Of a stretch of 64,000 nt of DNA, positions 42,979 through 60,607 are shown piece after piece; position 1 is the stretch's first letter, and every line of letters begins with the position of its first letter. A program made the translations under genes and the position numbers. The DNA lies in NCBI RefSeq assembly GCF_040215725.1, contig NZ_CP157968.1, forward strand, positions 248,001-312,000. Direction: 5' to 3'. This DNA comes from Rhizobium sp. ZPR4 (GTDB lineage Bacteria; Pseudomonadota; Alphaproteobacteria; Rhizobiales; Rhizobiaceae). The notes under the pieces are model-generated. The model saw nothing but the letters and a program-made list of their open reading frames with translations, ran no database searches and was not told the DNA's origin.

Positions 42979-43004
42979 TTCCCCCTCCGCGGCGCTCATC
43001 AGCG

Positions 43005-43045
43005 CCTCACAAACATCATACCTTTAACATATGATGTTTGTGAGG
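43005..43045. promoter_or_regulatory. Long perfect inverted repeat between MFS and GntR genes
   Basis: CCTCACAAACATCATA and TATGATGTTTGTGAGG are perfect 16-bp arms around a 9-base centre, 27 bases upstream of the MFS start and 71 upstream of the GntR start. It is almost certainly the operator for this divergent pair, long enough for two dimers. Confidence 0.8.
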
Positions 43046-43115
43046 CAACAAGCTATTTGCTTTTGTCACCGCATTCTGATTGGTCTCGTTGGCGATGGGG
43101 GTGAAGGACTGACGC

Positions 43116-44724: not shown

Positions 44725-45669
44725 TTAGAGCTCGATTTCGTAGACCCGCTCATGCGTCGCGACGAAACCCTTGCCGTCCGGCGTCACCCAGCCACGAAAC
44801 ATCCCAGGCGTATTGTAGGGCGCAACGGCAATGCCGTGAGCATCTATCGCCACCAGCCCGGCACCGATCTGATGCGGCGCCAGATCGTGGTTGATAAGCC
44901 CGTCCGTTGCGGTTGCGATATCCTGCCGCAGATAAGCCATGCGAGACGCGATCTCGTGTCCGACAACGTAGCGTATAAAAAATTCGCCCTTGCCCGTTCC
45001 TGAAACCGCACAGACGCCATCGCGCGCATAGGTGCCCGCACCGATGACCGGGCTATCGCCCACGCGCCCGTCAGGCTTGTTGTTGTAGCCGCCTGTCGAG
45101 GTGGCGGCGGCAAGATGGCCGGCGGCATCGAGCGCCACGGCCCCAACCGTGCCATGCTTTTCGTTTTCCGTTCCTTCGGTGCCGGCAGCCGCATGGAGCT
45201 TCATCGCCTCCAGCGCCTCGACCCGCTTCTGCGTGGTAAAATAGGATTGCGGCTCCACTTGCAGCCCCTTGGCTTCGGCAAAGCGATCGGCGGCTGGGCC
45301 AGTCATGTAGATGGCACGACCGTCCTCCATCAGCGCACGGGCGGCCCTGATCGGATTGCGGATCGCGCGCGAGGCACTGATGGCACCCGCCTCCAGCGTT
45401 GCGCCGTCCATGATCGAGGCATCAAGCTCGTGCACGCCGTTTTCGTTAAGCGCAGCGCCATGTCCGGCGTTGAAATGCGGGCTGTCCTCCATGGTCACGA
45501 CAGCAGCTTCGACGGCATCAATGGCGCTGTCGCCGGCCCTCAGCCGCGCATAGCCCGCACGCAAAGCGGCAGCCAGATCACGGCGCGCACCCTCCCATTC
45601 CTCCGGCGTCATGCTGTCTTCCGGCATGACGCCGCAACCACCGTGAATAGCCAGCGCAATTTTCGTCAT
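44725..45669 (-). CDS. iaaA: Isoaspartyl peptidase / plant-type L-asparaginase
   Basis: A 314-residue Ntn hydrolase of the isoaspartyl aminopeptidase/asparaginase family: ALAIHGGCGVMPEDSMTPEE, the GHGAALNENGVHELDASIMD G loop, and the self-cleavage site KHGTVGAVALD with T174 as the new N-terminal nucleophile, plus STGGYNNKPDGRVGDSPVIG AGTYA. It splits beta-aspartyl dipeptides and L-asparagine. It lies 88 bases after hydantoinase B at the end of the large cluster, and a hairpin separates them, so it may be read partly on its own. Its presence suggests an isoaspartyl or related peptide appears in the pathway. Confidence 0.92.
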   Translation of the reverse strand: MTKIALAIHGGCGVMPEDSMTPEEWEGARRDLAAALRAGYARLRAGDSAIDAVEAAVVTMEDSPHFNAGHGAALNENGVHELDASIMDGATLEAGAISASRAIRNPIRAARALMEDGRAIYMTGPAADRFAEAKGLQVEPQSYFTTQKRVEALEAMKLHAAAGTEGTENEKHGTVGAVALDAAGHLAAATSTGGYNNKPDGRVGDSPVIGAGTYARDGVCAVSGTGKGEFFIRYVVGHEIASRMAYLRQDIATATDGLINHDLAPHQIGAGLVAIDAHGIAVAPYNTPGMFRGWVTPDGKGFVATHERVYEIEL

Positions 45670-45726
45670 TTTCCACTCCGATCCGGTGATGTCACGTATC
45701 GCGTCCTATCACCGCTCCCATGCATG

Positions 45727-45751
45727 ATGCCCGATCGACATGATCGGGCAT
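45727..45751 (-). terminator. Hairpin between hydantoinase B and the isoaspartyl peptidase gene
   Basis: ATGCCCGATC, loop GACAT, GATCGGGCAT: a perfect 10-bp stem 7 bases after the hydantoinase B stop codon. There is no T-run. Confidence 0.55.
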
Positions 45752-45757
45752 GCTATT

Positions 45758-47296
45758 TCAACCGAAGGCGATATCACCGATGACCCTTACTCTTACACGG
45801 CGCGCTCCGCCGGGCAGATAAGCGATCGGAATATCCTCGACTTCGAGCGTCTTTAGGCTCTCGCGGCTCGCGCCGGAAGCGACGGCGGCATTCTGAGCCT
45901 CCGACTCTGCCTTGGCGAGAGCCTCGTCACGGCTCAGCCCCGAAAATACCTGATCGACCTCGCCCGACACCTGCGCCATCGCGGCACCGAGCGCATTGGC
46001 GACGCCGGCGTTTTCGACGCGAAGAATCTCCGAGGCTCCCTCGATCCTTTCCGGGATCAGGAAGGCGCCGCCGCCGACGGCAATCAGCGGCACATCCTCG
46101 GCCGATGTCTTCATCTGGTCGAAACTGTCCGTGACCATGTCGCGGATGCGGTCGAGGCTTGCCTTGACGAAGGCCGGATCGAGACCGCGAACGCGATCCT
46201 TATCCCCCATCTCGATCAGGCCGGCGGCGACGGCGACGTCCGAGGTCGTCAGCGTATTGCCGCCAAAAACGCGCGCCTCCGTCAGGATGCGATAGCCGAC
46301 CGAACGCGGACCGATCTTGCCCGTTTCCGGATCGATGATCGTGCCGCCGCCAAGGGCGATCGGCAGGAGATCGGGCATCCGGAACAGCGTGCGCACACCA
46401 CCGATATGAACGATGTTGTTGGCCTCGCGCGGAAAGCCACCGACAAGGCAGCCGATGTCCGAAGTCGTGCCGCCGACATCGACCACCATGGCGTCGCTTA
46501 AACCCGTCAGGAAGGCTGCACCACGCATCGAATTGGTCGGACCGGATGCAAAGCTGTGAACCGGGTTAGCGGCCGCGACATCCGCCAGCGCCACCGTACC
46601 GTCGTTCTGCGTCAGATAGAAAGGTGCGGTAATGCCTGCTTCGCGCAGCGCATCCGAGAATGCCTGCACCGTAGTCCTGCCGAGCGACTGCAGTGCCGCA
46701 TTGAGAAGCGCGACATTCTCGCGCTCAAGCAATCCGATCCGTCCGAGGGTATGCGACAGCGTGATCCTTGCATCGGGGATCACCGAGCGAACGATCTCTG
46801 CGGCCCTGACCTCGCATTCGGTCGTCAGCGGCGAGAAGGTCGCCGATATCGCGATCGAGGTGACGCCGGCATCGCGGATCTTCATCGCCGCTTCACGGAT
46901 CTCGTCGGGGATCATCGGCACGAGCGGGCTGCCGTCATACTCATGGCCACCATGAACCATGAAGATGAGCGGATCGACAGCCGCGCGCAAATCATTGGGC
47001 CAGTCGCACATGGGCGGTAAGGAGGCGCCAGTCGGCAGCGCAATGCGGATCGCAGCCACCCTTTCCAGCCGCGCCCGCTCGACGACCGCATTGGTGAAAT
47101 GGGTAGTGCCGATCATCACGGCGTCGATCGGCCGGCCGGATGCGCCGGCGTGGCCGGCCACATGGCTGAGAGCCGCCTTCACGCCTGACATCACGTCTTG
47201 CGTCGTGGGAACCTTGATGGAAGCGATGATCTTCTCACCGTCGATCAGAACGGCATCCGTATTGGTGCCGCCAACGTCAATACCGATGCGTTTCAT
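45758..47296 (-). CDS. Hydantoinase/oxoprolinase-family protein (copy B)
   Basis: A 512-residue protein of the HyuA / 5-oxoprolinase family, with the actin-like ATPase motifs RIGIDVGGTNTDAV, MIGTTHFTNAVVERARLERV A, SFASGPTNSMRGAAFLTG and MVVDVGGTTSDIG. These enzymes use ATP to open five-membered cyclic amides (hydantoins, 5-oxoproline). It is clearly shorter than the HyuA enzymes of about 690 residues. Its start overlaps the DUF917 B stop by 4 bases (ATGA). It is a close relative of copy A at 51301. Substrate unknown. Confidence 0.9.
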   Translation of the reverse strand: MKRIGIDVGGTNTDAVLIDGEKIIASIKVPTTQDVMSGVKAALSHVAGHAGASGRPIDAVMIGTTHFTNAVVERARLERVAAIRIALPTGASLPPMCDWPNDLRAAVDPLIFMVHGGHEYDGSPLVPMIPDEIREAAMKIRDAGVTSIAISATFSPLTTECEVRAAEIVRSVIPDARITLSHTLGRIGLLERENVALLNAALQSLGRTTVQAFSDALREAGITAPFYLTQNDGTVALADVAAANPVHSFASGPTNSMRGAAFLTGLSDAMVVDVGGTTSDIGCLVGGFPREANNIVHIGGVRTLFRMPDLLPIALGGGTIIDPETGKIGPRSVGYRILTEARVFGGNTLTTSDVAVAAGLIEMGDKDRVRGLDPAFVKASLDRIRDMVTDSFDQMKTSAEDVPLIAVGGGAFLIPERIEGASEILRVENAGVANALGAAMAQVSGEVDQVFSGLSRDEALAKAESEAQNAAVASGASRESLKTLEVEDIPIAYLPGGARRVRVRVIGDIAFG

Positions 47297-48369
47297 GCGA
47301 ATACCGATCTGAAATCAATGTCATAGCCGAAAGCGCGCGGGCCGACGGCAGCAATCCCCGCAGGCGAGGTCAAAAGCTCGGGTGCCGGTAGAGCGACAAC
47401 GGTGACGCGCTGGCCGTAGCGCACGGATTCCGTGCCGATCGCGCTGCCGGAAATCGTGTCGAGCAGGCAGAGAAGATCAGGCGTCATCGCCACTGGCTCG
47501 CCATCCCGGAAGGCGACCGCCCATTCGTTCTGGAAAGCGAGCTCCATTCGGGAGCCCTTGTCGGCATCGATGCCTTCGATCACGGTCCGGCCGCGCAGGA
47601 AGCCGCCGGTGGTTTCGCGCGCCACATCGATCACCTTGCCGCGGAACAATTGCTTGCCGCCCTCGTGGTCCAGGACCGCCTTTACCGGGTCGTCGTGACG
47701 TGCACGTGCCTCGATGACCGCACGACCAAGTTCGGTCGCCTTGGTGATGGTGTAGTGAATGCCCCAGTCCTTCACCTCGCGGCCGGTGCGTGGCGCCTTG
47801 CAGGTGGCGGCGGTCGATCCGACTTCGGTGCAGACCTTGCGCGAAATCCGCTCCATCCACTTCCAGGACGCAGCCTTGGTGACGATGACCTCGTTGTCGC
47901 GCACGTCGACGAGGGAAAGCGGATACATCGGTAGGTTGCCGATGGCAAAGGAGGTCATCTGCGCCTCGGGATAGGCGCGTCCCATCGCATCGGCATTGAC
48001 AACAGGCCGGCCCAGCATCGCAGCGGCAAGGAAGGAGGACAGCGCATTCGAGCCGCCGATCTCGACGCTCATGATCGCACGGAAGGGTTTTCCGAGGTAA
48101 TCCTCCATGACCTCGACCGCGCGCGCCAGATGCACAGGATCGCTGAGACGTTCCTGCCCCACCAGCGGCGCTCCCATCTTCGAGACGACGGCAACCATAT
48201 CGTCATCGTCGAGCGCCATCGGGTCCATCACCTGGACGCGACGGCCTTCGGCATAGAGCCTGCGAAGATTGAGCGTCGAAATATAAGGATTGCCACCGCC
48301 TCCGGTTCCCAGGATCCAGGCTCCCGTTGCGAGCGGCTCGATATTATCTTCGGAAAATTCCTGAAGCAT
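47293..48369 (-). CDS. DUF917-family protein (copy B)
   Basis: A 358-residue DUF917 protein: the glycine-rich ILGTGGGGNPYISTLNLRRL at the N-terminus, EIGGSNALSSFLAAAMLGRP VVNADAMGRAYPEAQM, and the late VRYGQRVTVVALPAPELLTS. DUF917 proteins nearly always accompany hydantoinase/oxoprolinase subunits, and may be the partner or a second enzyme in opening the ring. AAGGTG precedes the ATG. Translationally coupled to hydantoinase B. It lies after the binding-protein gene, with a repeat and hairpin in the 169-base gap. Confidence 0.88.
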   Translation of the reverse strand: MLQEFSEDNIEPLATGAWILGTGGGGNPYISTLNLRRLYAEGRRVQVMDPMALDDDDMVAVVSKMGAPLVGQERLSDPVHLARAVEVMEDYLGKPFRAIMSVEIGGSNALSSFLAAAMLGRPVVNADAMGRAYPEAQMTSFAIGNLPMYPLSLVDVRDNEVIVTKAASWKWMERISRKVCTEVGSTAATCKAPRTGREVKDWGIHYTITKATELGRAVIEARARHDDPVKAVLDHEGGKQLFRGKVIDVARETTGGFLRGRTVIEGIDADKGSRMELAFQNEWAVAFRDGEPVAMTPDLLCLLDTISGSAIGTESVRYGQRVTVVALPAPELLTSPAGIAAVGPRAFGYDIDFRSVFA

Positions 48370-48447
48370 GTTTCACCTTCGGCAATAGAGCAATTCCAGG
48401 AAAAGTGCGCAGCGGTTTTCCGTCCGGGATTGCTTAAAATAAGGAGA

Positions 48448-48488
48448 TAGAGCGGTTCGGAGATTCCGTGAAAAGCTGAACCGCTCTA
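48448..48488. repeat. Rhizobial palindromic repeat (AGAGCGGTTC type)
   Basis: TAGAGCGGTTC and GAACCGCTCTA are perfect 11-bp arms around a 19-base centre ending in GTGAAAAGCT. This spelling resembles intergenic palindromes common in Rhizobium genomes. It sits in the gap between the binding-protein and DUF917 B genes. Confidence 0.6.
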
Positions 48489-48493
48489 GCTGC

Positions 48494-48515
48494 CCCGACC
48501 CCGAATGGGGCCGGG
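48494..48515 (-). terminator. Hairpin after the binding-protein gene
   Basis: CCCGACCCC, loop GAAT, GGGGCCGGG: a 9-bp stem with one mismatch, 23 bases after the stop codon of the binding protein. With the neighbouring palindrome it may reduce read-through into DUF917 B. Confidence 0.45.
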
Positions 48516-48538
48516 TCTATGTCATGTGCCGGCGAAGA

Positions 48539-50134
48539 TCAGTTCGCCTTGCAGTCCCAATGGAAATTCGAGAAGTTCAGATCCCAGCTCTGCATGGGAA
48601 TGAACTCATAGCCCTGCAGGCATTTGTTCGCCGCATAGCGCCTGTTCGGCGATACCGCCCATACGTCGGGCTGCAGCTCGGCAAGCTTCGTTTGCAGCTC
48701 CTTGTAGGTCGCGTTCTGCGCCTTGATGTCGGTGGTCCCCCTCGCCTTGTCGATCAGGGCATCGACCTCGGGATTCTGCAGCCATTCCATCGACATCCAG
48801 GTGCCGGAAGCCTTGGAGTGATACTGGTTGTAGAATATCGCGTCCGGCGACGGATAATTTGGCGAGATGTTGACCTGCGTCGAGGCCGGCGTGGTTTCCG
48901 GCTTCGACGAGAGCTCGACGATGCGGTTCCAGGGTTCGGGCTTGATATCGAGGGTGATCCCGATCTGCTCGAGATTGGCCTGCATCAGCAGCGCAACTTC
49001 GGACTCAAAGGCGAGCGAGGCGACGTAGCTGTTGACCAGCGTGATCTTCTGACCGGCATATTTCGACTTCGCAAGCTCTTCCTTCGCCTTTTCGAGATCG
49101 AAGACGCCGGGCTGGGTATCGTCGTTATGCGCGTCCTTGAAGACGGTAGAAAGCGGGCCGGTCATGTCGAAGCCCGGATAGATCGCCTCCTGGATGGTCT
49201 TGTAGTCGGTTGCATAGGCGATCGCGCGCCGAACATGCACGTCGTCGGTCGGATAGACCTTGCTGTTCAGCTTGATGACGAAGCCGCCGGCGGTCGTCGA
49301 CTGGAGCAGCTTGTAGCCCGGCATCTTGCCGATCGTTTCATAGGTGTCGTTGCCGAGGCCATGCGAGGAGAGGCCGAGCTCACCCTTTTCGGCGAGCGCC
49401 TTGACGGTGGCGTCGTCGCTCGTCTGGACGAAACGCACTTCATCGATCGGCGTCCCCTTGGACCAGCCGAGAAAGTAATCGGGATTGCGTGCGATCACCA
49501 TGTCGGCGGAGCGATTGTAGCTGACCAGCTTATAAGGACCTGAACCGGCCGAGTGTTCGCCGACATAGGCTTCGCCCCATTTGTCGTCCGGCTTGGAATT
49601 GGCTTCGATCAGCTTTTCGTTCAGCGCCATCATCAGCGGCGTCACAGCCATGAACGGCGAGAACTGGCGATCGAGCTTGACGACGACAGTCTTCTCGTCC
49701 GGTGCGGTGACGTTTTCGGGCTTTACGAGGCCGACGACGAGGTTCGAGGGACCCTTGTTAATGCCGATCAGGCGCCTGATCGACCAGACGAAGTCGGAGG
49801 CCTTGACGGGCGTACCATCCTGGAACTTCGCATCGTCGCGAAGATGGAAGGTGTAGGTCAGACCATCCGGGGAAATATCCCAGGACTTTGCCAGATGGGG
49901 CACGATCTCGCCCGAAGGGCTGACGGTCGTCAGGGCATCATACATGTTTACGATGGCCATGTAGCCCGTATAGTCGGTGACCTTGGCCGGATCGAGCGAG
50001 CTGAAGATCTGCATCGTGTTGACGGCGATCGACACCTTGTCGGCCGCCGATGCCGCGACCGACGTCAGCGGCAATGCCATGACACCGGCAAGCAGCAACG
50101 TCGAGAGACGCAGATTTCTGGAACCCATCTTCAT
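48539..50134 (-). CDS. ABC transporter substrate-binding protein, family 5
   Basis: A 531-residue binding protein with a signal peptide (RLSTLLLAGVMALPLTSVAA, cut near ASAADK). Family-5 features: MYDALTTVSPSGEIVPHLAK, WDISPDGLTYTFHLRDDAKF QDGTPVKASDFVWSI and SGPYKLVSYNRSADMVIARN P. GAGGAG precedes the ATG at 50134. Encoded between the two hydantoinase-DUF917 pairs, it should capture the substrate for the permeases at 54525 and 55406. Cys near the C-terminus (NKCLQGYEF, WDCKAN) may form a disulfide. Confidence 0.93.
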   Translation of the reverse strand: MKMGSRNLRLSTLLLAGVMALPLTSVAASAADKVSIAVNTMQIFSSLDPAKVTDYTGYMAIVNMYDALTTVSPSGEIVPHLAKSWDISPDGLTYTFHLRDDAKFQDGTPVKASDFVWSIRRLIGINKGPSNLVVGLVKPENVTAPDEKTVVVKLDRQFSPFMAVTPLMMALNEKLIEANSKPDDKWGEAYVGEHSAGSGPYKLVSYNRSADMVIARNPDYFLGWSKGTPIDEVRFVQTSDDATVKALAEKGELGLSSHGLGNDTYETIGKMPGYKLLQSTTAGGFVIKLNSKVYPTDDVHVRRAIAYATDYKTIQEAIYPGFDMTGPLSTVFKDAHNDDTQPGVFDLEKAKEELAKSKYAGQKITLVNSYVASLAFESEVALLMQANLEQIGITLDIKPEPWNRIVELSSKPETTPASTQVNISPNYPSPDAIFYNQYHSKASGTWMSMEWLQNPEVDALIDKARGTTDIKAQNATYKELQTKLAELQPDVWAVSPNRRYAANKCLQGYEFIPMQSWDLNFSNFHWDCKAN

Positions 50135-50174
50135 TCTAGTTCTCCTCTTTGATGCGGGAACTCCCCGCTTATGG

Positions 50175-51308
50175 TTAGGCTGCCTTTCGGCCTGGGGCCG
50201 GCAGCGGCGAATAGGTGATGTCCGGGTAGCCGAAGGCCGCCGGGCCGACGACATCCAGCGCGCGCGCGCTGCGCAACAGCTCGTGACAGGGAATGGCGAC
50301 GACGGCGACGCGCTGGCCGTAGCGCAGCATTTCGGTGGTGATCGGATAGCCGGTATCGACATCGAGCAGTACGATCAGATCCGGTACGCAGACCTCGATC
50401 ACGCCATCGCGGCGGAAGACCAGGAATTCGTTCTGGATCGCCACGTTTGCCATCTGGCCGGCGCAATCGTCGAAGCCCGCGAGCTCCATGTCGCCGACGA
50501 CGAAACCACCGCGCAGATGGCGTTTCAGATCGGTGATCTTGCCATTGAAGACACGCCGCCCGCCTTCCAGCGCACAAACGGCAGCAATCGGATCCTCCTG
50601 CGCCTTGCGCGCGCGGATCACCGCTTCGCCGAGCGCGATCGCCTTGGTGAAGCTCTTCGGAATGCCATACTGATGGACGTAATGCGCCTGCATCGGCGCC
50701 GTCGCCAGCATGGCACCGCCACCCTGCGCCACGACGCAGGCGCGCGCCATCCGCTCGTGCCAGACTTCCGATACGGCGTGGCTGAAGATCACGGCATTGC
50801 CATGCAGGTCGCACATGACCGAAGGCGTGGAGCTGTGGCCATAGATCGAAAAGGTCGTCATCTGCATTTCGGGAAAGGCACGGCCCATGCCGTCGCAATC
50901 GAGGATCGGCAGGCCGCCGAGAGCCGCTGTGACGAGCGGGTTCATCGAATTCGCGCCACCGATCTCTTCGCAGACGATGGCATCGATCGGCGTGCGGATC
51001 AGCTCTTCCATGGCGCGCAGGCAGCGCAAGCCCTCGCGCCCTTCGCGGATGCGCTCGACGCCGACAACCGGTGCGCCGATGCCGCCGATCGACATGCAAA
51101 GGGCGTCAGGCTCGATGGCGTCAGTCGCCAGAACCTTCATCTCGTAGCCGGCCTTCATGGCTTCGAGGACGAGGAGCTTGCCTTGATAGGGGTTGCCGCC
51201 GCCGCCGGTGCCGAGAATGCCCGCCCCGATTTCGAGCGCATCGAGATCCTCGGGCGTCAGCCGGCGCAGATTGGCGTCATCATATTTCTGCTTGCGCGTC
51301 TCAGGCAT
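50175..51308 (-). CDS. DUF917-family protein (copy A)
   Basis: A 377-residue DUF917 protein: GAGILGTGGGGNPYQGKLLV, EEIGGANSMNPLVTAALGGL PILDCDGMGRAFPEMQM, and the late LRYGQRVAVVAIPCHELLRS. It matches copy B block by block. The ATG at 51308 overlaps the hydantoinase A stop by 8 bases, with GGGAGG just upstream; the long frame to 51566 lies inside hydantoinase A and is not used. It starts right after the hydantoinase and is followed by the binding protein. Probable partner of hydantoinase A. Confidence 0.88.
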   Translation of the reverse strand: MPETRKQKYDDANLRRLTPEDLDALEIGAGILGTGGGGNPYQGKLLVLEAMKAGYEMKVLATDAIEPDALCMSIGGIGAPVVGVERIREGREGLRCLRAMEELIRTPIDAIVCEEIGGANSMNPLVTAALGGLPILDCDGMGRAFPEMQMTTFSIYGHSSTPSVMCDLHGNAVIFSHAVSEVWHERMARACVVAQGGGAMLATAPMQAHYVHQYGIPKSFTKAIALGEAVIRARKAQEDPIAAVCALEGGRRVFNGKITDLKRHLRGGFVVGDMELAGFDDCAGQMANVAIQNEFLVFRRDGVIEVCVPDLIVLLDVDTGYPITTEMLRYGQRVAVVAIPCHELLRSARALDVVGPAAFGYPDITYSPLPAPGRKAA

Positions 51309-52857
51309 GATGGCCTCCCATTTCACCGACGACTTTGACGTGAATGCGCGTGGCGTTGCCCGGCAGATAGGCAAGCGGCGTGTCTTCGCGCTCGATAACT
51401 TCAAGGGTTTCCGCAAGCGCTCCGGCGGCGATCGCCTTTTCCCGGGCCTCGGCTTCAGCTTCGGCAAGTGCGCTCTCGCGCGTGCGGCCATCGACAAGCG
51501 AGAAGACGCGATCCGTCTCACCGCTGATCTGGGCGATGGCAGCGCCAACGGCATTGGCCACGGCAAAATTTTCCGGCAGGATCACCTCGAGATCGCCGAT
51601 GCGATCAGGCATCAGGATCGAGCCGCCGCCCACCGCAATGACTGGCACCGGCGTTGACGAAATCCGGCTGCGCTCGACGCAGGCCTCGAGCATCGCATCG
51701 ATCTTTGCCACAGCAGCCTCGACAAGCGTCTTGTCGAGATTGGCGACCAGCGCGCGATCACCGATATCGGCCTTGCCGGCAGCAACCGCAATATCGGTAG
51801 CGGTCAGTGTCGACCCTCCGAAGCAGAGCGCTTCCTTGCGCACGCGATAACCGACCGACTTCGGCCCAACGGTGATGCCCGCTTCACCCCTGACAACAAG
51901 CGAACCGCCACCAAGGCCGATGGAAAAGACATCGGGCATGCGGAAATTGGTGCGGACCCCGCCGATATCGACGGTTGTGGAGGCCTGTCGCGGGAAACCG
52001 TGCGACAGAGCGCCGACGTCCGAGGTCGTGCCGCCGACATCGACGACGACGGCGTCCTTCAGTCCTGTCAGGAATGCGGCACCGCGCATGGAATTGGTCG
52101 GACCGGAGGCAAAGGTCAGCACCGGAAAGGCACGCACGACGTCGGCGGCCATCAGGGTTCCGTCGTTCTGCGTTATGTAGAACGGGCACGGGATGCCGGC
52201 AGCCGCAAGCGCCTTGCCGAAAGCCGCAACCGTACGATCCGCAAGCGACAGCAGGCTCGCATTCATGATCGCAGCACTTTCGCGCGCCAGCAGGCCGTGA
52301 CGGCCGATATCCTTCGACATCACCACAGGTAGGCCAGGGCAATGCTGCCGCAGGATTTCCTTGGCCCGCACTTCCATCGCATCGTTGATACCGCTGAAAA
52401 CGCAGGTCACGGCGGCAGCCTTCAGGCCCTTTGCACGGATTTCACCGGCGATGCGCACGATGGCGTCTTCATCGAGCGGTGAAAGTTCGCGCCCGTCGAA
52501 CTCGTAGCCGCCCTTGACCTGGTAGCCATGATTGCCGACGATCTCGCGCAGGTCGTCGGGCCAGTCGACCATGGGCGGCAGACCTGCACCCGACGGCAGG
52601 CTCAGACGGATGGCTGCGACCTCGTCCATGTGCCGGCGCTCGATCACCGCATTGGTGAAATGCGTGGTGCCGATCATCACGGCGGCAATGCGGATACGAT
52701 CGATGCCGGAGGCCTCGATGACCTTCTCCAATGCCTCGATCACGCCCGAAGTCACATCTTCGGTCGTCGAGGCCTTGACCCCAGCCAGAACGGTCTTTCC
52801 CTCAAGGACGACAGCATCCGTATTGGTGCCGCCGACGTCAATTCCAACGCGATACAC
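51301..52857 (-). CDS. Hydantoinase/oxoprolinase-family protein (copy A)
   Basis: A 518-residue HyuA/oxoprolinase-family protein with RVGIDVGGTNTDAVVL, MIGTTHFTNAVIERRHMDEV A, FASGPTNSMRGAAFLTGLKD AVVVDVGGTTSDVG and GLGGGSLV. The start codon is GTG with GAGGAG 7 bases upstream. Copies A and B share every motif and are near-equal in length, so they look like paralogs, but their spacing and the differing loops (GHEYDGSPLVPM in B, GYEFDGRELSPLDEDAI in A) suggest different substrates or a heteromer. It follows the ABC ATPase by 17 bases. Confidence 0.9.
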   Translation of the reverse strand: MYRVGIDVGGTNTDAVVLEGKTVLAGVKASTTEDVTSGVIEALEKVIEASGIDRIRIAAVMIGTTHFTNAVIERRHMDEVAAIRLSLPSGAGLPPMVDWPDDLREIVGNHGYQVKGGYEFDGRELSPLDEDAIVRIAGEIRAKGLKAAAVTCVFSGINDAMEVRAKEILRQHCPGLPVVMSKDIGRHGLLARESAAIMNASLLSLADRTVAAFGKALAAAGIPCPFYITQNDGTLMAADVVRAFPVLTFASGPTNSMRGAAFLTGLKDAVVVDVGGTTSDVGALSHGFPRQASTTVDIGGVRTNFRMPDVFSIGLGGGSLVVRGEAGITVGPKSVGYRVRKEALCFGGSTLTATDIAVAAGKADIGDRALVANLDKTLVEAAVAKIDAMLEACVERSRISSTPVPVIAVGGGSILMPDRIGDLEVILPENFAVANAVGAAIAQISGETDRVFSLVDGRTRESALAEAEAEAREKAIAAGALAETLEVIEREDTPLAYLPGNATRIHVKVVGEMGGHHA

Positions 52858-52874
52858 GTCAGGCTCCTCTTCAA

Positions 52875-54521
52875 TCAGTCTGTGGTTTTGACGAGGAAGC
52901 GCGTGCGCTCTTCCTCGCTCACGCTGGGCTTCAGGCGCTCTTCTTCGTCGGTGACGACGGGAATGGCGGCTATCAGCGCGCGTGTGTAGGGGTGATTGGG
53001 TGCGGCAAAGACCGCCGGCGTCGGTCCTTCCTCGACGATCTCGCCGCGCAGCATGATGGCGATACGCGAACAGAAATTACGCATCAGCGATAGGTCATGC
53101 GAGATCATCAGATAGGTGAGACCAAGTTCCTCGCGCAGCTGCAACAGCAACTCGATAACCGTTTTCTGCACCGACACGTCAAGCGCTGCCGTCGGCTCGT
53201 CCAGGATCAGGATCTTCGGCTCGGCGGCAAGCGCGCGCGCAATCGCCACGCGCTGCTTCTGGCCGCCCGAAAGCTCATGCGGATATTTTGCCAGATAGGA
53301 TTGCGGCAGACGCACGAGCTGCATGAGCTGCTTCATCCGTGCCTCGCGGGCTGGTCCATCCATGCCGATGGATTTCAAAGGCAGCGCGAGCGTTTGCTGA
53401 ACGTTGCGCTTGGGATTGAGAGACGTGCCGGGGTTCTGATAGACGATCTGCGTCAGCCGCTTGCCGCGACCGGGAGCCGGCGCATCAATGGTGACGCCAC
53501 CTGAGGTCGGGCGAGACAGATCCATGATGATGCGTGCGACCGAGGTTTTGCCCGAGCCGGATTCGCCGGCCAATCCGAAGATTTCGCCCTGACGCAGCGT
53601 CAGGCTCACGTCGCGAACGGCATGGAAACCGGGTTTCCTGCCATAGACCTTGTTGAGGCCTTCGACCTTGACGATGGGCGCACGGTCGCTCTGCGGCAGA
53701 TCGATAACGCGCTCACCGTAAAGCGGCGGTACGGCTTCCAATAGAGCTTTGGTATAAGGCTGCTGCGGGCTGGTCAGAATCTCGTGGCAGGGGCCGGTCT
53801 CGACGATATCGCCATGATGCATGACCACCACTCGGTCCGCCACCTTGCGCACGACGCCGAGATTGTGGGTGATCATGAGAAGAGCCATGTTCTCCTCGAC
53901 CACCAGCTGGTTGATCAGGTTCAGGATCTCGTCCTGGGTCGTCACGTCGAGCGCGGTACCGGGCTCGTCGGCGATCAGAAGTTTCGGCTGGTGCAGCAGC
54001 GCAAGCCCGATCAGGACGCGTTGGCGCATGCCGCCCGACAACTCGGACGGATAGGCATTCATCACACGCTCGGCATCGGCAAGCTGAACGCGGCGCAAGA
54101 CGGCCGCGATGCGCTTCCGACGCTCCGCCCTGGACGAACTGGCTCCGTCGCGCTTGTCGGCGAAACGCATGACGTCATCGAGATGCGTGCCGATCTTGAA
54201 GACCGGATTGAAGGATGAAAGCGGGTCCTGCATGATCAGCGAAAAGGCCGTGCCTTTCAGCGCCTCCCGTTCTCTTCGCTGCATTTTCAAAACATCGCGT
54301 CCTGCGACCGAGATCGTGCCTGAGCTGATCGCCGCATTCTTCGGCAAGGTGCCGATAATCGCCTTTGCCGTTACGGATTTGCCCGATCCGGTCTCCCCGA
54401 TCAGCGCGACGCGCTCGCCAGCTGCGACGGTGAAGGCAATGTCTCGCAGCACTTGCCGGGTGCGGCCATAGGTGGTGAAGGAGACGTTCAAAGCCTCGAT
54501 CTTGAGAAGCGGCTCGGTCAT
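52875..54521 (-). CDS. ABC transporter, fused duplicated ATP-binding protein
   Basis: A 548-residue double ABC ATPase of the oligopeptide class. First half: Walker A GETGSGKS, signature LSGGMRQR, Walker B LLIADEPGTALD. Second half: Walker A GESGSGKT, signature LSGGQKQR, Walker B ILILDEPTAALD. Each ends with the HPYTRALIAAIP / QPYTKALLEAVP extension. It drives the permeases encoded just upstream, with a 3-base gap to the DppC-type gene. It is related to, but clearly distinct from, the fused ATPase at 11386. Confidence 0.93.
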   Translation of the reverse strand: MTEPLLKIEALNVSFTTYGRTRQVLRDIAFTVAAGERVALIGETGSGKSVTAKAIIGTLPKNAAISSGTISVAGRDVLKMQRREREALKGTAFSLIMQDPLSSFNPVFKIGTHLDDVMRFADKRDGASSSRAERRKRIAAVLRRVQLADAERVMNAYPSELSGGMRQRVLIGLALLHQPKLLIADEPGTALDVTTQDEILNLINQLVVEENMALLMITHNLGVVRKVADRVVVMHHGDIVETGPCHEILTSPQQPYTKALLEAVPPLYGERVIDLPQSDRAPIVKVEGLNKVYGRKPGFHAVRDVSLTLRQGEIFGLAGESGSGKTSVARIIMDLSRPTSGGVTIDAPAPGRGKRLTQIVYQNPGTSLNPKRNVQQTLALPLKSIGMDGPAREARMKQLMQLVRLPQSYLAKYPHELSGGQKQRVAIARALAAEPKILILDEPTAALDVSVQKTVIELLLQLREELGLTYLMISHDLSLMRNFCSRIAIMLRGEIVEEGPTPAVFAAPNHPYTRALIAAIPVVTDEEERLKPSVSEEERTRFLVKTTD

Positions 54522-54524
54522 GGC

Positions 54525-55406
54525 TCAGCTCTCCACATCAAACATGTCGCGCAAACCATCGCCTAGAAGATTGAAGCCGAGCGTCACGTAGAAGACCGCG
54601 GCTCCCGGGCACACGACTTCCCACCAATAATCGGGCATGAACTGGCGGCCGTCGGCGACCATGGAACCGAGGTCAGGAATGGGCGGCTTCACACCAAAGC
54701 CGAGGAAGCTGAGAGTGGCACCAAAGAGGATGACGAAGGCCGCATCCAGCGTCGTCTTGACGGAAATCACCGCAACGCAATTCGGCAGGATTTCGCGGAA
54801 GAGGATGTGCATCGGCCCGGCACCGGCAAGGCGGGCTGCCTCGATATAATCTTCGGACGCGATGGACTTGGAAACGGAATAGATCAGCCGCGCATGCCAT
54901 GTCCACCACAGCAGCGTGATGGCAATCATCGCGTTCGTCAGGTTCGGCTCGAGCAGGTTCGACACGGCAAGCGCCATGACGAGCGGCGGCATCGCCAGCA
55001 TGACGTTCGTCAGGCCCGTGATGATCTTTTCGACCCAGCCACCGAAATAGCCGGCAATCAGGCCAAGTACCGTACCGATCGGCACGGAAATACCAAGTAC
55101 GCCGATGACCAGAAGCAGGGAGACGCGCATGCCGAAAATTGTGCGGGAGAAGATATCCCGGCCGACTTTGTCGGTGCCGAACCAATGAGCAGCGTCAGGT
55201 GCAACGTGCCGTGCCCGGAAATCGACCACAGCACCCACATGCTTGGGATAGGGCGTCAGCCATGGCGCGAAAACCGCTAGTACGATGACGGAAATGAGGA
55301 TCAGCGTGCCGATCACCGCAGCCGGATTGCGGCTGAAGCGATACCACATCATGTAACCCGTGCTCAGCCCGCGGTCGGACGCATCAAGCATCTTCATATC
55401 GGCCAT
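54525..55406 (-). CDS. Peptide-type ABC permease (DppC type)
   Basis: A 293-residue inner-membrane permease: a hydrophilic start, first helix AAVIGTLILISVIVLAVFAP WL, the HWFGTDKVGRDIFSRTIFGM loop and the coupling helix IASEDYIEAARLAGAGPMHI LFREILPN. C-terminus LGDGLRDMFDVES. Its start overlaps the last base of the DppB-type gene. It forms the channel with that protein. Confidence 0.93.
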   Translation of the reverse strand: MADMKMLDASDRGLSTGYMMWYRFSRNPAAVIGTLILISVIVLAVFAPWLTPYPKHVGAVVDFRARHVAPDAAHWFGTDKVGRDIFSRTIFGMRVSLLLVIGVLGISVPIGTVLGLIAGYFGGWVEKIITGLTNVMLAMPPLVMALAVSNLLEPNLTNAMIAITLLWWTWHARLIYSVSKSIASEDYIEAARLAGAGPMHILFREILPNCVAVISVKTTLDAAFVILFGATLSFLGFGVKPPIPDLGSMVADGRQFMPDYWWEVVCPGAAVFYVTLGFNLLGDGLRDMFDVES

Positions 55407-56434
55407 CAGCGTGCCTCCTTGCGGCGCAGGCGTGGGTCAATGATCGAGATCAGGACGTCTACGACCAGGTTCGCAACGATGAAAAACAGGCCGGCGACCA
55501 GCACGACGGCGGTCACGGCGTTGAGGTCCTTTTGCAGGATGGCGTTCAGCCCGTAGGACGCGAAGCCACCCCAGGCGAACACCATCTCGATGACGAAGGC
55601 ATTGCCGATCAGCGATGCGAATTCCAGCCCCATGATCGTCAGTGGCGCAATCGACGACAGCTTGAGGAGATAGCGGAAGATGATGACCCTCTCCGGCACG
55701 CCGAAACTCTGCAGGGTCAACACGTGGTCCTTGCGCTGGTTCTCCAGCATGGAGGAACGGGTGATGCGCGTAATCTGGCCGATGCCGGCCATGGCGAGCG
55801 CGAAAGCCGGCAGCACGAGATGTTGAAGCGCATCGACGAACACATCCAGACGTCCCGCCAGCAAGCCATCGATCAACAGGAAGCCGGTCGGCCCGGGCTG
55901 AAAGCTTAAGGAATGATCGAGGCGGCCGATGATCGGCCAGTTCGGCAGACAGCGGGCAGCCAGCAATTGCAGGCTGATCGCAAATAGGAAACTCGGAATG
56001 GTGACACCGGTCAAAGACAGGATGCGGCCGATATGATCCAGCGCGCGATCCCTAAAATGCGCAGTGATGACGCCGAGGGGAATGGCCACCACAAACATGA
56101 AGATCACAGAGACGAGAACCAGCTCGACGGTCGCCGGCACGGTCTGCTCCAGATCGGTCGTGACGGGACGTTGCGACACCAGCGACATGCCGAGATCGCC
56201 CCGCAGCGCCTTGCCGACATAGTCGACATATTGGACCAGAAGCGGCTTATCCAACCCCATCTGCACGCGCAGCGCATCGACCTGCTCCTGCGTTGCCGCA
56301 GGGCCAAGGGCCATGCGCGCGGGATCTCCCGGCACGACGCGCGCCAGCGCGAAAATCATGATGGAAAGCGCGATCATGACCAGCACGAAGGTGCCGAGCC
56401 GCGTCAGGATCGCGACCAACGGATGTTGCTGCAT
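55406..56434 (-). CDS. Peptide-type ABC permease (DppB type)
   Basis: A 342-residue permease, first gene of the large minus-strand cluster. It has IMIFALARVVPGDPARMALG PAATQEQVDALRVQMGLDKP (the periplasmic loop after helix 1), the GLLAGRLDVFVDALQHLVLP AF loop and the coupling segment HVLTLQSFGVPERVIIFRYL LKLSSIAPL. Slightly longer than the one at 14856. The promoter lies in the 115-base gap shared with the LuxR-type gene. Confidence 0.92.
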   Translation of the reverse strand: MQQHPLVAILTRLGTFVLVMIALSIMIFALARVVPGDPARMALGPAATQEQVDALRVQMGLDKPLLVQYVDYVGKALRGDLGMSLVSQRPVTTDLEQTVPATVELVLVSVIFMFVVAIPLGVITAHFRDRALDHIGRILSLTGVTIPSFLFAISLQLLAARCLPNWPIIGRLDHSLSFQPGPTGFLLIDGLLAGRLDVFVDALQHLVLPAFALAMAGIGQITRITRSSMLENQRKDHVLTLQSFGVPERVIIFRYLLKLSSIAPLTIMGLEFASLIGNAFVIEMVFAWGGFASYGLNAILQKDLNAVTAVVLVAGLFFIVANLVVDVLISIIDPRLRRKEAR

Positions 56435-56454
56435 CGACGGGAGTTTCCTTGTTC

Positions 56455-56538
56455 GTCAGCTAACTGACAGACAACAATCCTCATCTGCGGACGTTGGACA
56501 ACCGGCCAAAGGTATAGTTTTCCAGCTTTATGGTATAG
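56455..56538. promoter_or_regulatory. Divergent control region with dyad and 21-base-spaced direct repeat
   Basis: GTCAG-CTAA-CTGAC (56455-56468) is a dyad close to the permease start. GGTATAG occurs at 56511 and again at 56532, exactly 21 bases apart, two helical turns, as expected for an activator binding one face of the DNA. Confidence 0.45.
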
Positions 56539-56549
56539 GTTATTTTTCA

Positions 56550-58925
56550 ATGTGCGCTTACAAACGCCGCATGCACAGACTGATTGCCCGACCTCATCTT
56601 TGCCATCGCATCGCTACAGCGCGCGCCGGCGTCATCTTTCTGCGTGCCCCCGCGGGAGCCGGAAAGAGCGCGCTCCTGTCGATGGCCGCCGAAGCGATGG
56701 GCCGGCGGATTTGCAGCCTGCAGCAACCGCGCATGAGCGACGTCGAGGATGGATGGCTCTTCTGGGACGTACCGGTTTCAGCTCGATCGGCTCGTCTTTC
56801 CACTCAGGTCATCGAGACCATCAGCGTCATGGTCATCGCCTGCCGTCCCGATCAGCGTATCAGCGGGCTGGCGCGGTTCATCCTGCATCGAGGTTCGGCG
56901 ACGCTCGATGCAGGCGACCTGACATTTTCCGATGAGGAATTACTGGAGCTGCCCGCCGAAGAAGCCAACCGGTTGGTCAAGGATTATGCCGGCTGGCCGG
57001 TTTTCCTGCCGCTGACACGCCGGCAAGACCCTCGCCTGTCCATCGATTATCTGCGCGAGAACTTTCTCGGCCACCTTTCGCCAGGGCAGACAGCGCTACT
57101 TTCCATCTGGCTCGAAACGCGATCGCCTGTCTCCTCCGAGGAATGGGTAGGGCTTTTACCGCCGCTTCTGGTCCAGACACCGGCCGCGCACGAGGAGTTG
57201 CTGAAGCTTCTGACAAGCGCCGTCAGCGAACGCCTGGCAAGCTTCGAAACCACGGTCGCCGTGATCGAAGTAGCCTCTGCTTTCGAGCAGGCGGGACAAG
57301 CGCTCGACGCCATGTCGCTGCTCCTCAAGCACGGGCACGAGGCCCATGCGGCGCAGATTCTGGAGCGTGCCCGAGGTCTGGAGCTGATCTATAGAAACAG
57401 CCTTGGGACCTTTCGCGACATCATCATGCGTTTTTCCCACGAGATGATCGCAACCAACGAGGTCGTACTTTTCGCCATGGCCCGCACGCTTCTAAAGCTC
57501 GGAGAACTGCAACGCGTGCGCCATCTCGTCGGCAAACATCTGGGGTCGGACTATCTCGATCCGCTGAAGGTCTTGCTGCGCGGATCGCGCTTTTCCTTCG
57601 CGGCACGAACCTTCCGGCTCAATCTCATGATCTCCGAAGACCTGATGCCGACCGACGCCATGATCACCCGCCTCGGCGAGTTCATGGCGGATTATCCGAT
57701 GGGCGATTACGGCAAATGGGCCGCCTACTACAACGCCCTGCTGGAATTCGAAATTCGCCGCCGGAATTTCCGCGAAGCGGAGGCCGCCGCCGCCCGCGCC
57801 TTGATCTATCTCGGCCATATGGGCGGCCAACCGTTGCTGGAATTCTTCATCCATCTGCATCAGACGGTATTGCGTCTGATGAGCGGCGATGTCCTTTTTG
57901 CTCGCCGCGCCGTCCAGGAGGCCCGGCAGAAACTGGAGCAGGTGCCGCACGCGGCGGAGGCGGAATTCCGCATGCTGCGGCTCGCCGAAGCCTGTATCGC
58001 CTATGAGGCCGGCCATCCGCGCGATCTCCTCCAATTCGTTCAGAGCGAGTTCGATGATTTTGCTGCTGCAGAAATCTGGCCGAGCCTGATGCAATTCGCT
58101 CTTCACTATGCATCACAGGTGCTGGCGGACCACTTTCCGATGGTGATCAGGCCCGGTTTTCTCGACGGGCTCTGGATCCATCTGTCGGAAGGCCTGCAGT
58201 TTCACGCCATGATGGAGATTCGCACCGCCATCGCCTATCAGAATGCCAATCGCTGGAACGATGCGGCAGCAACGCTATCCGCTGTCCGTATGCGCATCGG
58301 CCGCAACTGGGTCGAAAGCGCCAGCGAGGAACTGACGCGACTGACCAGACGGGACGAGATTTCCTATGCCATGACATGGCTGCGCGACAGCGTGCGTCTG
58401 TCGACGCCGCGTCCCTATCTATCGCGCCAGATCGATGCGCTGATCGCCAACCCGAAGGTCACCAATCGCGAAAAGGTCGCGCTCCAGCTCTGGCAAAGCT
58501 ATGCCGCCTATCAGCGCCGTGACAATGCTGCGACGCGCGCGCATCTGCTGTCGGCGCTTGAAGGCGCCACGCGCCTCGGCTGCAACGGCGTACTCTCTGA
58601 AGAGCGGATCTTTCTCTCCCCGCTTCTCAAGAACCAGCGCATCCGCAGCTTCATCGAAACCTCGTCCGATGTCCGCACCGCGCTTTCGCTCTTTGCAAGC
58701 TCCGTGAACTCGCCGCAGGCGAAAGCCTTGCAGGGCGGCCTCTCGCAGCGCGAGGTACAGATGATCCAACTGATCGCCAGCGGCATGTCGAACAAGCGCA
58801 TTGCTCATACCCTCAATGTTTCCGAGGTGACTGTGAAATTTCACCTCGGAAATCTGTTTCGCAAGCTGGGCTGTCATCGCCGCGCCGAAGCGATCCGGGC
58901 CGCGACCGCGCTCGGCTGGCTGTGA
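56550..58925 (+). CDS. MalT/LAL-type LuxR regulator
   Basis: A 791-residue regulator. The N-terminus has a P-loop (VIFLRAPAGAGKSALLSMAA E) in the MalT-like setting RLIARPHLCHRI; there is a reduced ATPase region, then a long helical TPR-like sensor from about residue 270 to 700, and a C-terminal LuxR helix-turn-helix (GLSQREVQMIQLIASGMSNK RIAHTLNVSEVTVKFHLGNL FRKLG). No phosphoacceptor domain. LAL proteins are inducer- and ATP-dependent activators. It is divergent from the ABC/hydantoinase cluster and is its most likely activator. The start at 56550 is weakly supported; a Met seven codons on is possible. Confidence 0.85.
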   Translation: MCAYKRRMHRLIARPHLCHRIATARAGVIFLRAPAGAGKSALLSMAAEAMGRRICSLQQPRMSDVEDGWLFWDVPVSARSARLSTQVIETISVMVIACRPDQRISGLARFILHRGSATLDAGDLTFSDEELLELPAEEANRLVKDYAGWPVFLPLTRRQDPRLSIDYLRENFLGHLSPGQTALLSIWLETRSPVSSEEWVGLLPPLLVQTPAAHEELLKLLTSAVSERLASFETTVAVIEVASAFEQAGQALDAMSLLLKHGHEAHAAQILERARGLELIYRNSLGTFRDIIMRFSHEMIATNEVVLFAMARTLLKLGELQRVRHLVGKHLGSDYLDPLKVLLRGSRFSFAARTFRLNLMISEDLMPTDAMITRLGEFMADYPMGDYGKWAAYYNALLEFEIRRRNFREAEAAAARALIYLGHMGGQPLLEFFIHLHQTVLRLMSGDVLFARRAVQEARQKLEQVPHAAEAEFRMLRLAEACIAYEAGHPRDLLQFVQSEFDDFAAAEIWPSLMQFALHYASQVLADHFPMVIRPGFLDGLWIHLSEGLQFHAMMEIRTAIAYQNANRWNDAAATLSAVRMRIGRNWVESASEELTRLTRRDEISYAMTWLRDSVRLSTPRPYLSRQIDALIANPKVTNREKVALQLWQSYAAYQRRDNAATRAHLLSALEGATRLGCNGVLSEERIFLSPLLKNQRIRSFIETSSDVRTALSLFASSVNSPQAKALQGGLSQREVQMIQLIASGMSNKRIAHTLNVSEVTVKFHLGNLFRKLGCHRRAEAIRAATALGWL

Positions 58926-58942
58926 GACCGGCTATGGACGTT

Positions 58943-60607
58943 TCAGACCACGCTTGCCTTGTCGGCATCCTCCTGCAAGGCGCGGCTGGCACCGATATCT
59001 TCGGCACCCAGCACAGCATAGCCGATGCTGGCAAAATGGGAATTGACGAGCTTGAGATCGCGCAAAGTCGCAAGGAACAGGCCGCTTGAACCGAGCAGCA
59101 CCGGATTGGCGCCACCAAGACGGGCGAGATGCTCCCTCGTCGCGCTCCGCTCGGCTTCGTTGAGGTGCCGTTTCGCATCGACGAGCTCCTGTGCCGAGCG
59201 CAGATCTTCCGTCGTCAAGGTCGACAGCGCCAACCGAAGGTCTGCCGCGACCTCGGCTTGCATGGTCTGCAGGGCGGCGTGGTCGGCCGCGTTGATCGTT
59301 CCCTCGGCCCGCCGCGTGATCTGCTCAAGGCAACGCTCAAGGATATCGCCAGCATGCCCGAGATTGACCGCGAATTCGATGACATCGGACAGGCGGCTGG
59401 CATCGCGGTCGGTCAGCTCCGACGGCTCGAGCCGGGCAAGATAGGCCTTGACGGCCTCATGCAGCATGTCGAGTTCCCTGCCTAGCCGAATGGCTTGTGA
59501 CGTCGCCTGCTTGTCGGGACGGGCGAGATCGGCCGGAACCAGGCGAAGAAGCGCCTCGACCAGATCGCCCATGCGCAAGATCTCCCGCGCCGCGCTGGCA
59601 AGGGCGAGATAAGGCGTTTCCAGCACCGACTTGTCCAGAAAGAGCGGGCGTGCCGCATCTCCCACCGGCTTGATCTTCTCGGGAAACAATTTGATCAATA
59701 GCGCCTGGGTCGGACCGAGCAGGCCGACGCAGGCAATAGCCAGCGCAGCATTGAAGGCCAGATGGAAGTTTGTCAGCATCGATGCCGGGTCCGCCGTGTG
59801 CTTCTGCAGGATATCCGCAAGAGGCTGCAGAAAGGGCAAGACGACGATACAGCCGATCGCGCGGAACAGGAGATTACCCATCGGCACGCGGCGGTTGGCC
59901 GGATTGGCCGCATTCGTTTCGAAGACCGGAGGCAGCGCACCACCGAGATTGGCACCAAGAACCAATGCAAGGCCAGCGGTCGGCGTCACGACGTTACCGG
60001 CGGCAAGACCTACCAGCAACAGCATCACGGCGACGCTGGAATGCGCTGCGAATGTCAGCGCTGCCGCCAGCAATATGTCGAGTACGGGATCGCCGGTAAT
60101 CGCGTCAAGGATGCTTCGCAGCGCGGGCGCGGTGCTGACCGGCTGGATCGTCTGCACGAGATCATGCAGGGCAAGCAGCATCAAGCCAAGCCCGATGCCG
60201 ACACGCCCGAGCTGGCGCACGCGCCCTTTCGGACCACGCCTGAAGGCGACATAACCTGCAAGAAGCAGCAAGGGTGAGATGAAGGAGACATCGAAGGAGA
60301 GCGCCTTGACGATCAGTGCCGTGCCGACATTGGCGCCCAGCATGACCGCCAGAGCCGGCACGAGGGCGACCGCGCCACGTGCTGCAAAGGAGGTCACCAT
60401 CATGACAGTCGCTGTGCTGCTCTGGAGCAGCATCGTCACACCCGCGCCGGCGGCAACGGCCACCAGGCGATTGCGCAGCGCACGGCCAAGAACGCGTCTC
60501 AGGTCGGAGCCGAAGGCCTTTTCAATGCCGCCTTGCACCATGCGCATTCCCCAGAGGAGAAGTGCGACATGCCCCATAAGTTCCAGGATGACGAGACTAC
60601 CGGTCAT
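58943..60607 (-). CDS. Na/Pi cotransporter-family protein with PhoU-like domain
   Basis: A 554-residue protein with two repeats of the Na+/phosphate cotransporter fold (QSSTATVMMVTSFAARGAVA LVPALAVMLGANVGTALIV and AHSSVAVMLLLVGLAAGNVV ... LVLGANLGGALPPVF; the Q-S-S and S-S motifs are diagnostic) followed by a helical PhoU-like region from about residue 340. This is the NptA / YjbB type, which exports or imports phosphate. It converges with the LuxR gene (17-base gap). No Pho box was seen upstream. Confidence 0.9.
   Translation of the reverse strand: MTGSLVILELMGHVALLLWGMRMVQGGIEKAFGSDLRRVLGRALRNRLVAVAAGAGVTMLLQSSTATVMMVTSFAARGAVALVPALAVMLGANVGTALIVKALSFDVSFISPLLLLAGYVAFRRGPKGRVRQLGRVGIGLGLMLLALHDLVQTIQPVSTAPALRSILDAITGDPVLDILLAAALTFAAHSSVAVMLLLVGLAAGNVVTPTAGLALVLGANLGGALPPVFETNAANPANRRVPMGNLLFRAIGCIVVLPFLQPLADILQKHTADPASMLTNFHLAFNAALAIACVGLLGPTQALLIKLFPEKIKPVGDAARPLFLDKSVLETPYLALASAAREILRMGDLVEALLRLVPADLARPDKQATSQAIRLGRELDMLHEAVKAYLARLEPSELTDRDASRLSDVIEFAVNLGHAGDILERCLEQITRRAEGTINAADHAALQTMQAEVAADLRLALSTLTTEDLRSAQELVDAKRHLNEAERSATREHLARLGGANPVLLGSSGLFLATLRDLKLVNSHFASIGYAVLGAEDIGASRALQEDADKASVV

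Follow-up and report, generated by a model that had tools for sequence, protein, structure and literature searches.

Which compound is handled by a gene cluster of Rhizobium sp. ZPR4 that joins a peptide-type importer to two hydantoinase-like HyuA proteins, each with a DUF917 partner, and how might these pairs open a ring? The cluster occupies positions 44725-58925 of the window, the whole stretch of 64,000 nucleotides (nt) analysed here, which belongs to contig NZ_CP157968.1 (C2 in our numbering) of a 7.74 Mb genome. On the minus strand it encodes, in order, the permeases DppB and DppC, a fused double ATPase, HyuA2, DUF917_2, a binding protein, DUF917_1, HyuA1 and the isoaspartyl peptidase IaaA, with a regulator gene diverging from them. 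The pairs are mirror-imaged, one being HyuA-first (HyuA2-DUF917_2) and the other DUF917-first (DUF917_1-HyuA1). The initial annotation had listed this gene content, proposed translational coupling of both pairs and seen in the importer, the HyuA-type ATPases and the terminal peptidase a catabolic-looking operon. All the genes were found there with scores above the Pfam cut-offs, DUF917_1 and HyuA1 overlapped by 4 nt and HyuA2 and DUF917_2 by 8 nt, and the gene content supported the catabolic assignment. The cluster is thus a real, conserved, catabolic-type operon with a variant of the HyuA-type ATP-dependent ring-opener, undescribed as far as the literature was searched. We give an even chance to its being an inducible operon for small cyclic amides derived from amino acids, most likely 2,5-diketopiperazines, opened by HyuA-DUF917.

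HyuA1 (45758-47296, minus strand) and HyuA2 (51301-52857, minus strand) both matched Hydant_A_N (PF05378; 144-151 bits) and Hydantoinase_A (PF01968; 101-102 bits), for which the cut-offs are 25.2 and 22.9, and were short, with 512-518 amino acids (aa) versus 689 in the caprolactamase alpha model. Among the 17 HyuA sequences aligned, D7, G9-D14, D273, G275-T278 and G408-G410 (motifs DVGGTNTDA, GGTT and GGG) were invariant; we take these residues to be the phosphate/ATP-binding positions of the ATPase fold. Profile matches of both proteins were to N-methylhydantoinase, which is the closest solved relative, caprolactamase (6yra) and acetone/acetophenone carboxylases, and the same relatives were recovered as fold matches of the predicted HyuA1 model (predicted local distance difference test, pLDDT, 89.7). 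The genome contained seven Hydantoinase_A and four Hydantoinase_B matches, and a whole-genome profile search found no HyuB gene (PF02538) adjoining the cluster; the nearest on the contig lay about 190 kb away, at C2:498693, which leaves DUF917 as the evident choice for the role of second subunit. HyuA adjoined DUF917 in 76 of 80 loci, which are the best matches led by DUF917_1 rather than a census; three exceptions were at a contig edge (L113, L127 and L135) and one was not (L139). For enzymes of the oxoprolinase/caprolactamase family, PMC6061476 assigns phosphorylation of the ring to the alpha subunit and hydrolysis of the resulting intermediate to the beta subunit, whose role DUF917 would take by its position.

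DUF917_1 (47293-48369) and DUF917_2 (50175-51308, start corrected), both on the minus strand, belong to the family now named S-Me-THD-like in Pfam, whose domains PF06032 and PF20906 matched over the whole length of the proteins (180/230 and 181/215 bits, above the cut-offs). NCBIfam holds equivalog models for S-methyl thiohydantoin desulfurase and thiohydantoin desulfurase (NF058532 and NF058529); the window copies scored 114/93 and 107/99 bits, about fourfold short of the cut-offs (450/440). The same genome provided a positive control: a third DUF917 gene on another contig (C1:4051052-4052173; L054:9053-10174) scored 601 bits versus the 440 required for thiohydantoin desulfurase. Its neighbours were an ErtE-type N-carbamyl-glutamate amidohydrolase (631 versus 520), an ErtD-type hydantoin-5-propionate amidohydrolase (783 versus 600) and a protein related to histidine ammonia-lyase, and this operon (C1:4051052-4056678; L054:9053-14679) is probably one for the utilisation of ergothioneine, a compound on which the Seebeck group reportedly works. 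The statement in the initial annotation that DUF917 has no established reaction therefore needs correction, since both databases name the family after desulfurases and one member in this genome passes the model.

All 22 aligned HyuA-partner DUF917 proteins matched both desulfurase models, the best E value being 2.7e-37 versus 5.1e-181 for the ergothioneine-operon copy. Thirty-five residues were invariant in these 22 proteins; E73, E103, N108, D127, E173 and D298 were among those changed in the ergothioneine-operon copy, while R131, R177, N281 and E282 were common to both, in a comparison with one desulfurase-type sequence of 24% identity whose alignment is not certain everywhere. Because of the quarter-of-cut-off scores and the changed invariant residues relative to this control, the window copies are members of the desulfurase fold family but probably not desulfurases themselves. 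The predicted DUF917_1 model (pLDDT 91.8) had a single fold match, 2o3i, a 'hypothetical protein', and PMC11055893 (2024) regards the family as lacking experimental characterisation and proposes that its members may act as hydantoinases. A fourth, weak PF06032 match in the genome (21.9 bits, under the cut-off) was a MurG. In Reyranella and other Alphaproteobacteria, two tandem DUF917 genes preceded one HyuA gene in 11 loci (L105, L109, L110, L115, L119, L120, L122, L123, L128, L129 and L131) and three did so in L125; several tandem genes per HyuA suggest hetero-oligomers of DUF917 chains.

The block from the LuxR-type regulator through DppB, DppC, the ATPase, HyuA2, DUF917_2, the binding protein and DUF917_1 to HyuA1 was complete in 13 of the 80 loci, with the regulator cut by the end of the examined stretch. 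These doubled loci came from Rhizobium, Agrobacterium and Neorhizobium records, isolate AFS060926, Alloyangia pacifica and Pararhizobium mangrovi. Within the genus, 22 of 148 genomes carried the operon, as judged by a DUF917_1 of at least 93% identity; the two samples overlap, G740 being L062 and G799 being L066. Four plasmid records, two of them from the same strain, contained 80% or more of the query at a single site. When compared with seven loci, the eight genes encoding the importer and the HyuA and DUF917 proteins had ratios of nonsynonymous to synonymous substitution rates (dN/dS) of 0.011-0.162, as expected under purifying selection; for the peptidase gene, full-length in five of the seven loci, dN/dS was 0.05-0.20 in those five. 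This recurrence and the low dN/dS indicate that the gene arrangement is not due to chance. Inactivity of the duplicates, which would have undermined the initial annotation, was examined and rejected: both pairs were intact in their HyuA and DUF917 motifs and conserved, with dN/dS of 0.011-0.112 for the four genes.

AroM or AroM-LuxR matches were found in 54 of the 67 single-pair loci, and some of the 13 loci without one were short contigs. In L037 (12109-13149), an AroM domain was fused to a LuxR helix-turn-helix according to Pfam, and tblastn found AroM-LuxR matches in L072-L078, L088 and others; the racemase-like domain perhaps acts as a sensor beside HyuA-DUF917.

To place the two pairs, quick trees were built from 99 of 145 DUF917 matches, chosen by locus and without matches shorter than 300 aa, and from 52 of 115 HyuA rows, without matches shorter than 430 aa; support values are from the Shimodaira-Hasegawa-like approximate likelihood ratio test (SH-aLRT) only. 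In the DUF917 tree, a split with a support of 100 set 60 rows, in which DUF917_1 sits among the DUF917-first pairs, apart from 39 rows, in which DUF917_2 sits among the HyuA-first operons; the 15 rows from doubled operons formed a single group in each half (96 and 100). Likewise, the 29 HyuA proteins of DUF917-first pairs were separated from the other 23 (98), with the 11 doubled rows in a single group on each side (99 and 99). Recent tandem duplication was ruled out by these separate deep clades. The pairs had initially been called paralogous; this holds for a deep relationship only, as each comes from a different old lineage.

In 24 loci of other genomes, three arrangements recurred: LuxR-Dpp-HyuA-DUF917-DUF917 (L046, L052, L053, L056 and L059); another importer, here labelled 'Pot', with HyuA-DUF917-DUF917 (L047-L051); and DUF917-HyuA pairs, frequently accompanied by AroM and by ATP-binding cassette (ABC) genes of their own. 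L047-L051 also encoded a 393-aa nitroreductase-domain protein, accompanied by an M19 dipeptidase in L047, L048 and L050. The nearest kin of the doubled operon in both trees, L053 and L056, carry the second DUF917 of the HyuA-first operon. Because the doubled rows group once in each half of both trees, we read the doubled operon as one old joining of two systems, in which the second DUF917 of the HyuA-first operon would have been lost and the DUF917_1-HyuA1 pair placed after the binding protein.

The last slot of the operon holds the IaaA-like peptidase of the Asparaginase_2 family (44725-45669, minus strand; PF01112, 299 bits), separated from HyuA1 by 88 nt. The nucleophile Thr174 was in place, T174 aligning with the start of the mature beta subunits of solved relatives; the NCBIfam beta-aspartyl-peptidase equivalog was missed (240 versus 567). 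IaaA was the commonest last gene, directly following HyuA1 in 8 of the 13 doubled loci (L060, L061, L064-L067, L070 and L071; in two frames in L066). In L070 it was itself followed by an M19 dipeptidase gene with a 4-nt overlap, and in L062 M19 occupied the slot after HyuA1. Moreover, an eroded IaaA remnant was observed just before an intact M19 in G739 and G740 (L191 and L192). By coordinates, IaaA directly followed HyuA1 in 16 of the 22 operon-bearing genomes; besides these, it was in two frames in G799 and lay on another contig in the fragmented assembly of G777. A high-scoring IaaA (E < 1e-86) was found in 18 of the 22 genomes with the operon (17 by orthology) versus 3 of 126 without it, leaving 123 of the 148 with neither (Fisher p = 1.4e-16, uncorrected for kinship); for any PF01112 match the counts were 20 of 22 and 28 of 126. 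M19 was present in all 13 genus genomes examined, so only its position counts. The terminal peptidase, which the initial annotation had included in the cluster, is thus tied to the operon both in several genera and within the genus.

That IaaA and M19 can occupy the same slot points to dipeptides as what the enzymes before them produce. We hold ATP-dependent ring opening by HyuA-DUF917 to be likely on the motifs and gene pairing, a dipeptide as the product to be somewhat favoured, and a diketopiperazine as the substrate to be a tentative choice. The family-5 importer would take up the ring compound, and the short HyuA of each module would phosphorylate an amide oxygen with ATP to give an O-phospho-imidate. 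DUF917, in place of HyuB, would let water attack that carbon, by analogy with its relatives, whose target is the thioimidate-like C2 of thiohydantoins. The ring would thereby open to a dipeptide, which the isoaspartyl peptidase and/or the M19 dipeptidase would cleave. The two modules would probably differ in the amide bonds, side chains or stereoisomers on which they act; action in series, as initially proposed, is one of several possibilities, and they could also work in parallel or as a single complex. The initial annotation had suggested a hydantoin, a succinimide-like or a cyclic beta-aspartyl compound as the imported ring. Such a ring may be the substrate, but a cyclic dipeptide is the better guess because the isoaspartyl peptidase is swapped for an M19 dipeptidase. 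A peptide-type importer and the chemistry of HyuA would also suit cyclic dipeptides, as would the link of DUF917 and AroM to cyclodipeptide-oxidase clusters and the reported ability of a Rhizobium to degrade cyclo(Asp-Phe) and cyclo(Asp-Asp).

Several observations weigh against cyclic dipeptides opened by a HyuA-DUF917 complex. IaaA is expected to cut beta-aspartyl bonds, whereas ordinary diketopiperazine opening gives alpha-dipeptides, which makes the match a loose one. Neither IaaA nor M19 directly followed HyuA1 in 4 of the 13 doubled loci (L063, L068, L069 and L079; in L069, an IaaA gene lies on the opposite strand at a distance of 3 kb) or in the operon-bearing genomes G187 and G298; the IaaA counted for G740 was another gene, 42% identical and elsewhere in the genome, hence the lower count by orthology; and G306, G726 and G794 have the same IaaA without the operon. 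No natural fusion supports the complex, since the two candidates among the best 120 rows (P0121, with a frame-shifted DUF917 end, and P0147, in which this end is missing, both judged by eye) look like frameshift or deletion artefacts. None of the 13 doubled loci had an AroM gene match, so the AroM link holds for the relatives only, and the cyclodipeptide-oxidase paper itself, in its accessible part, reads DUF917 proteins as hydantoinases (PMC11055893). That same text, which suggests that AroM is racemase-like, lends weight to an unlikely alternative in which opening of a 5-substituted hydantoin or dihydropyrimidine ring would yield an N-carbamoyl amino acid, AroM-type proteins of related loci serving as racemases. 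The N-methylhydantoinase relationship of HyuA, the hydantoin-type ring on which the named DUF917 relatives act and the AroM genes of single-pair loci agree with it. Against it stands the lack of a carbamoylase among the neighbours surveyed: 263 candidates gave 193 clusters, of which 123 were drawn up and 86, one protein per cluster, compared with Pfam. No M20/HyuC protein was among the 25 families listed (each in two members or one) of the 97 matched, although unlisted neighbours could hold one; nor was there one among the recurrent clusters, which were scanned apart, although unscanned neighbours could encode it. Recurrent neighbours were an amidase (PF01425; 10 of 105 stretches, median distance 6 kb), oxidoreductases, regulators and transporters. 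Moreover, IaaA and M19 are peptidase families, and the recognisable hydantoin route of this genome, of ErtD and ErtE type, is located elsewhere.

If the ring were instead a lactam, a succinimide, another cyclic beta-aspartyl compound or an opine-like compound, and its opening gave a beta-aspartyl amide as substrate for IaaA, this would agree with the prevalence of IaaA as last gene, with the Rhizobium and Agrobacterium relatives as hosts and with the opening of a lactam by caprolactamase, a HyuA-type enzyme (PMC6061476); we regard this as quite unlikely, since M19, a family of general dipeptidases, can stand in for IaaA, and HyuA1-DUF917_1 pairs are widespread without IaaA. Degradation of a sulfur-containing ring by DUF917 proteins acting as thiohydantoin or S-methyl-thiohydantoin desulfurases seems very improbable: the whole-length S-Me-THD domains and the matches to both models agree with it, but the scores fall far below those cut-offs, at least six invariant residues are changed in the copy that does pass, and the cluster contains no Ert-type gene. 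Finally, the peptidase may be just a neighbour that was there first, the operon running from LuxR to HyuA1. In G306 (L193), IaaA is retained and only about 130 bp separate the flanks at window positions 45670 and 58940, so that the LuxR-HyuA1 block was lost or gained as a unit; in G726 and G794, IaaA stands beside Mrp antiporter genes with the operon absent, and in L194 and L195 the block 45671-58939 is missing together with the next gene (58943-60607). However, IaaA also follows HyuA1 under other flanks, in Agrobacterium (L065 and L071) and Alloyangia (L070) records, and within the genus few genomes without the operon have it; for these reasons, the simpler explanation for G306, G726 and G794 is that they lost the block, and a mere neighbour is improbable.

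Compared with known systems, CapAB caprolactamase, N-methylhydantoinase and 5-oxoprolinase (PF01968/PF02538) share with the window the HyuA domains, ATP motifs, fold and gene-pair organisation, but pair HyuA, which is longer in the caprolactamase alpha model, with HyuB where the cluster has DUF917. The S-Me-THD desulfurases share PF06032 and PF20906 over the whole length, but differ in polar residues and have ErtD/ErtE-type partners where the window copies have HyuA. PMC11055893 reports an enrichment of DUF917, AroM and transport genes, dipeptide ABC genes among them, in clusters with a cyclodipeptide oxidase; DUF917 and the dipeptide-type ABC importer are common to both, whereas AroM occurs in single-pair relatives only and the window operon has no cyclodipeptide oxidase gene. 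The nitroreductase-domain protein is restricted to L047-L051, and albonoursin synthase was not its best match. According to the accessible part of PMC3852281, cyclic dipeptides are widespread and their degradation little known; it describes the breakdown of cyclo(Asp-Phe), cyclo(Asp-Asp) and cyclo(Gly-Phe) by a Rhizobium strain and that of glycine-containing rings by an Agrobacterium, which uses a hydrolase and then a dipeptidase. This route has the same logic of ring opening followed by a dipeptidase, and that part of the source names no genes and does not mention ATP. The gene set of the cluster was not described in the open-access literature searched, including the accessible parts of PMC11055893, PMC9503626, PMC6061476 and PMC3852281.

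A broader proposal, that HyuA-DUF917 forms a separate class of ATP-dependent amide-ring hydrolases with a desulfurase-fold subunit for HyuB, and that two such modules, of anciently separated lineages, were joined once with dipeptidases in a single operon to give general cyclic-dipeptide catabolism in Rhizobium, Agrobacterium and their kin, is doubtful; the O-phospho-imidate made by HyuA would be electronically like the thioimidate hydrolysed by DUF917 relatives. If HyuA-DUF917 does open cyclic dipeptides with ATP, a widespread protein pair would gain a function, many 'hydantoinase/oxoprolinase' annotations would need renaming (HyuA2 has at least 8000 relatives, with or without DUF917 beside them), and one fold would serve both desulfuration and phospho-imidate hydrolysis within one genome.

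The importer is of the family-5 peptide/nickel type. Its solute-binding protein (48539-50134, start corrected, minus strand; PF00496, SBP_bac_5, 266 bits) has a signal-peptide-like N-terminus by eye and lay under all substrate-class equivalog cut-offs shown, the best being NikA (134 versus 393). The DppC-type (54525-55406) and DppB-type (55406-56434) permeases, both BPD_transp_1 proteins on the minus strand, overlap by 1 nt. The fused DppD-DppF-type ATPase (52875-54521, minus strand; 548 aa), with two ABC_tran and two oligo_HPY stretches, passed the NikD, NikE, CntD and CntF models, matches that leave the substrate unfixed. The divergent LuxR/MalT-like regulator (56550-58925, start corrected, plus strand; 791 aa; GerE, 71 bits) missed the NCBIfam MalT equivalog (56 versus 537 bits), matching in the LuxR helix-turn-helix only, and is MalT-like in build only; a P-loop-like APAGAGKS was read near its N-terminus.

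Just outside the cluster, at 41683-43817, an MFS-like (major facilitator superfamily) transporter gene diverges from a GntR/FadR-like regulator gene, both recognised by eye; the regulator was matched in 1 of the 13 doubled loci (L060). Between the binding-protein gene and DUF917_1, the stretch 48382-48498, with inverted-repeat arms seen by eye, matched other Rhizobium plasmids (88% identity to NZ_CP032685, where 11 places match some part of the query) and is perhaps a dispersed rhizobial repeat.

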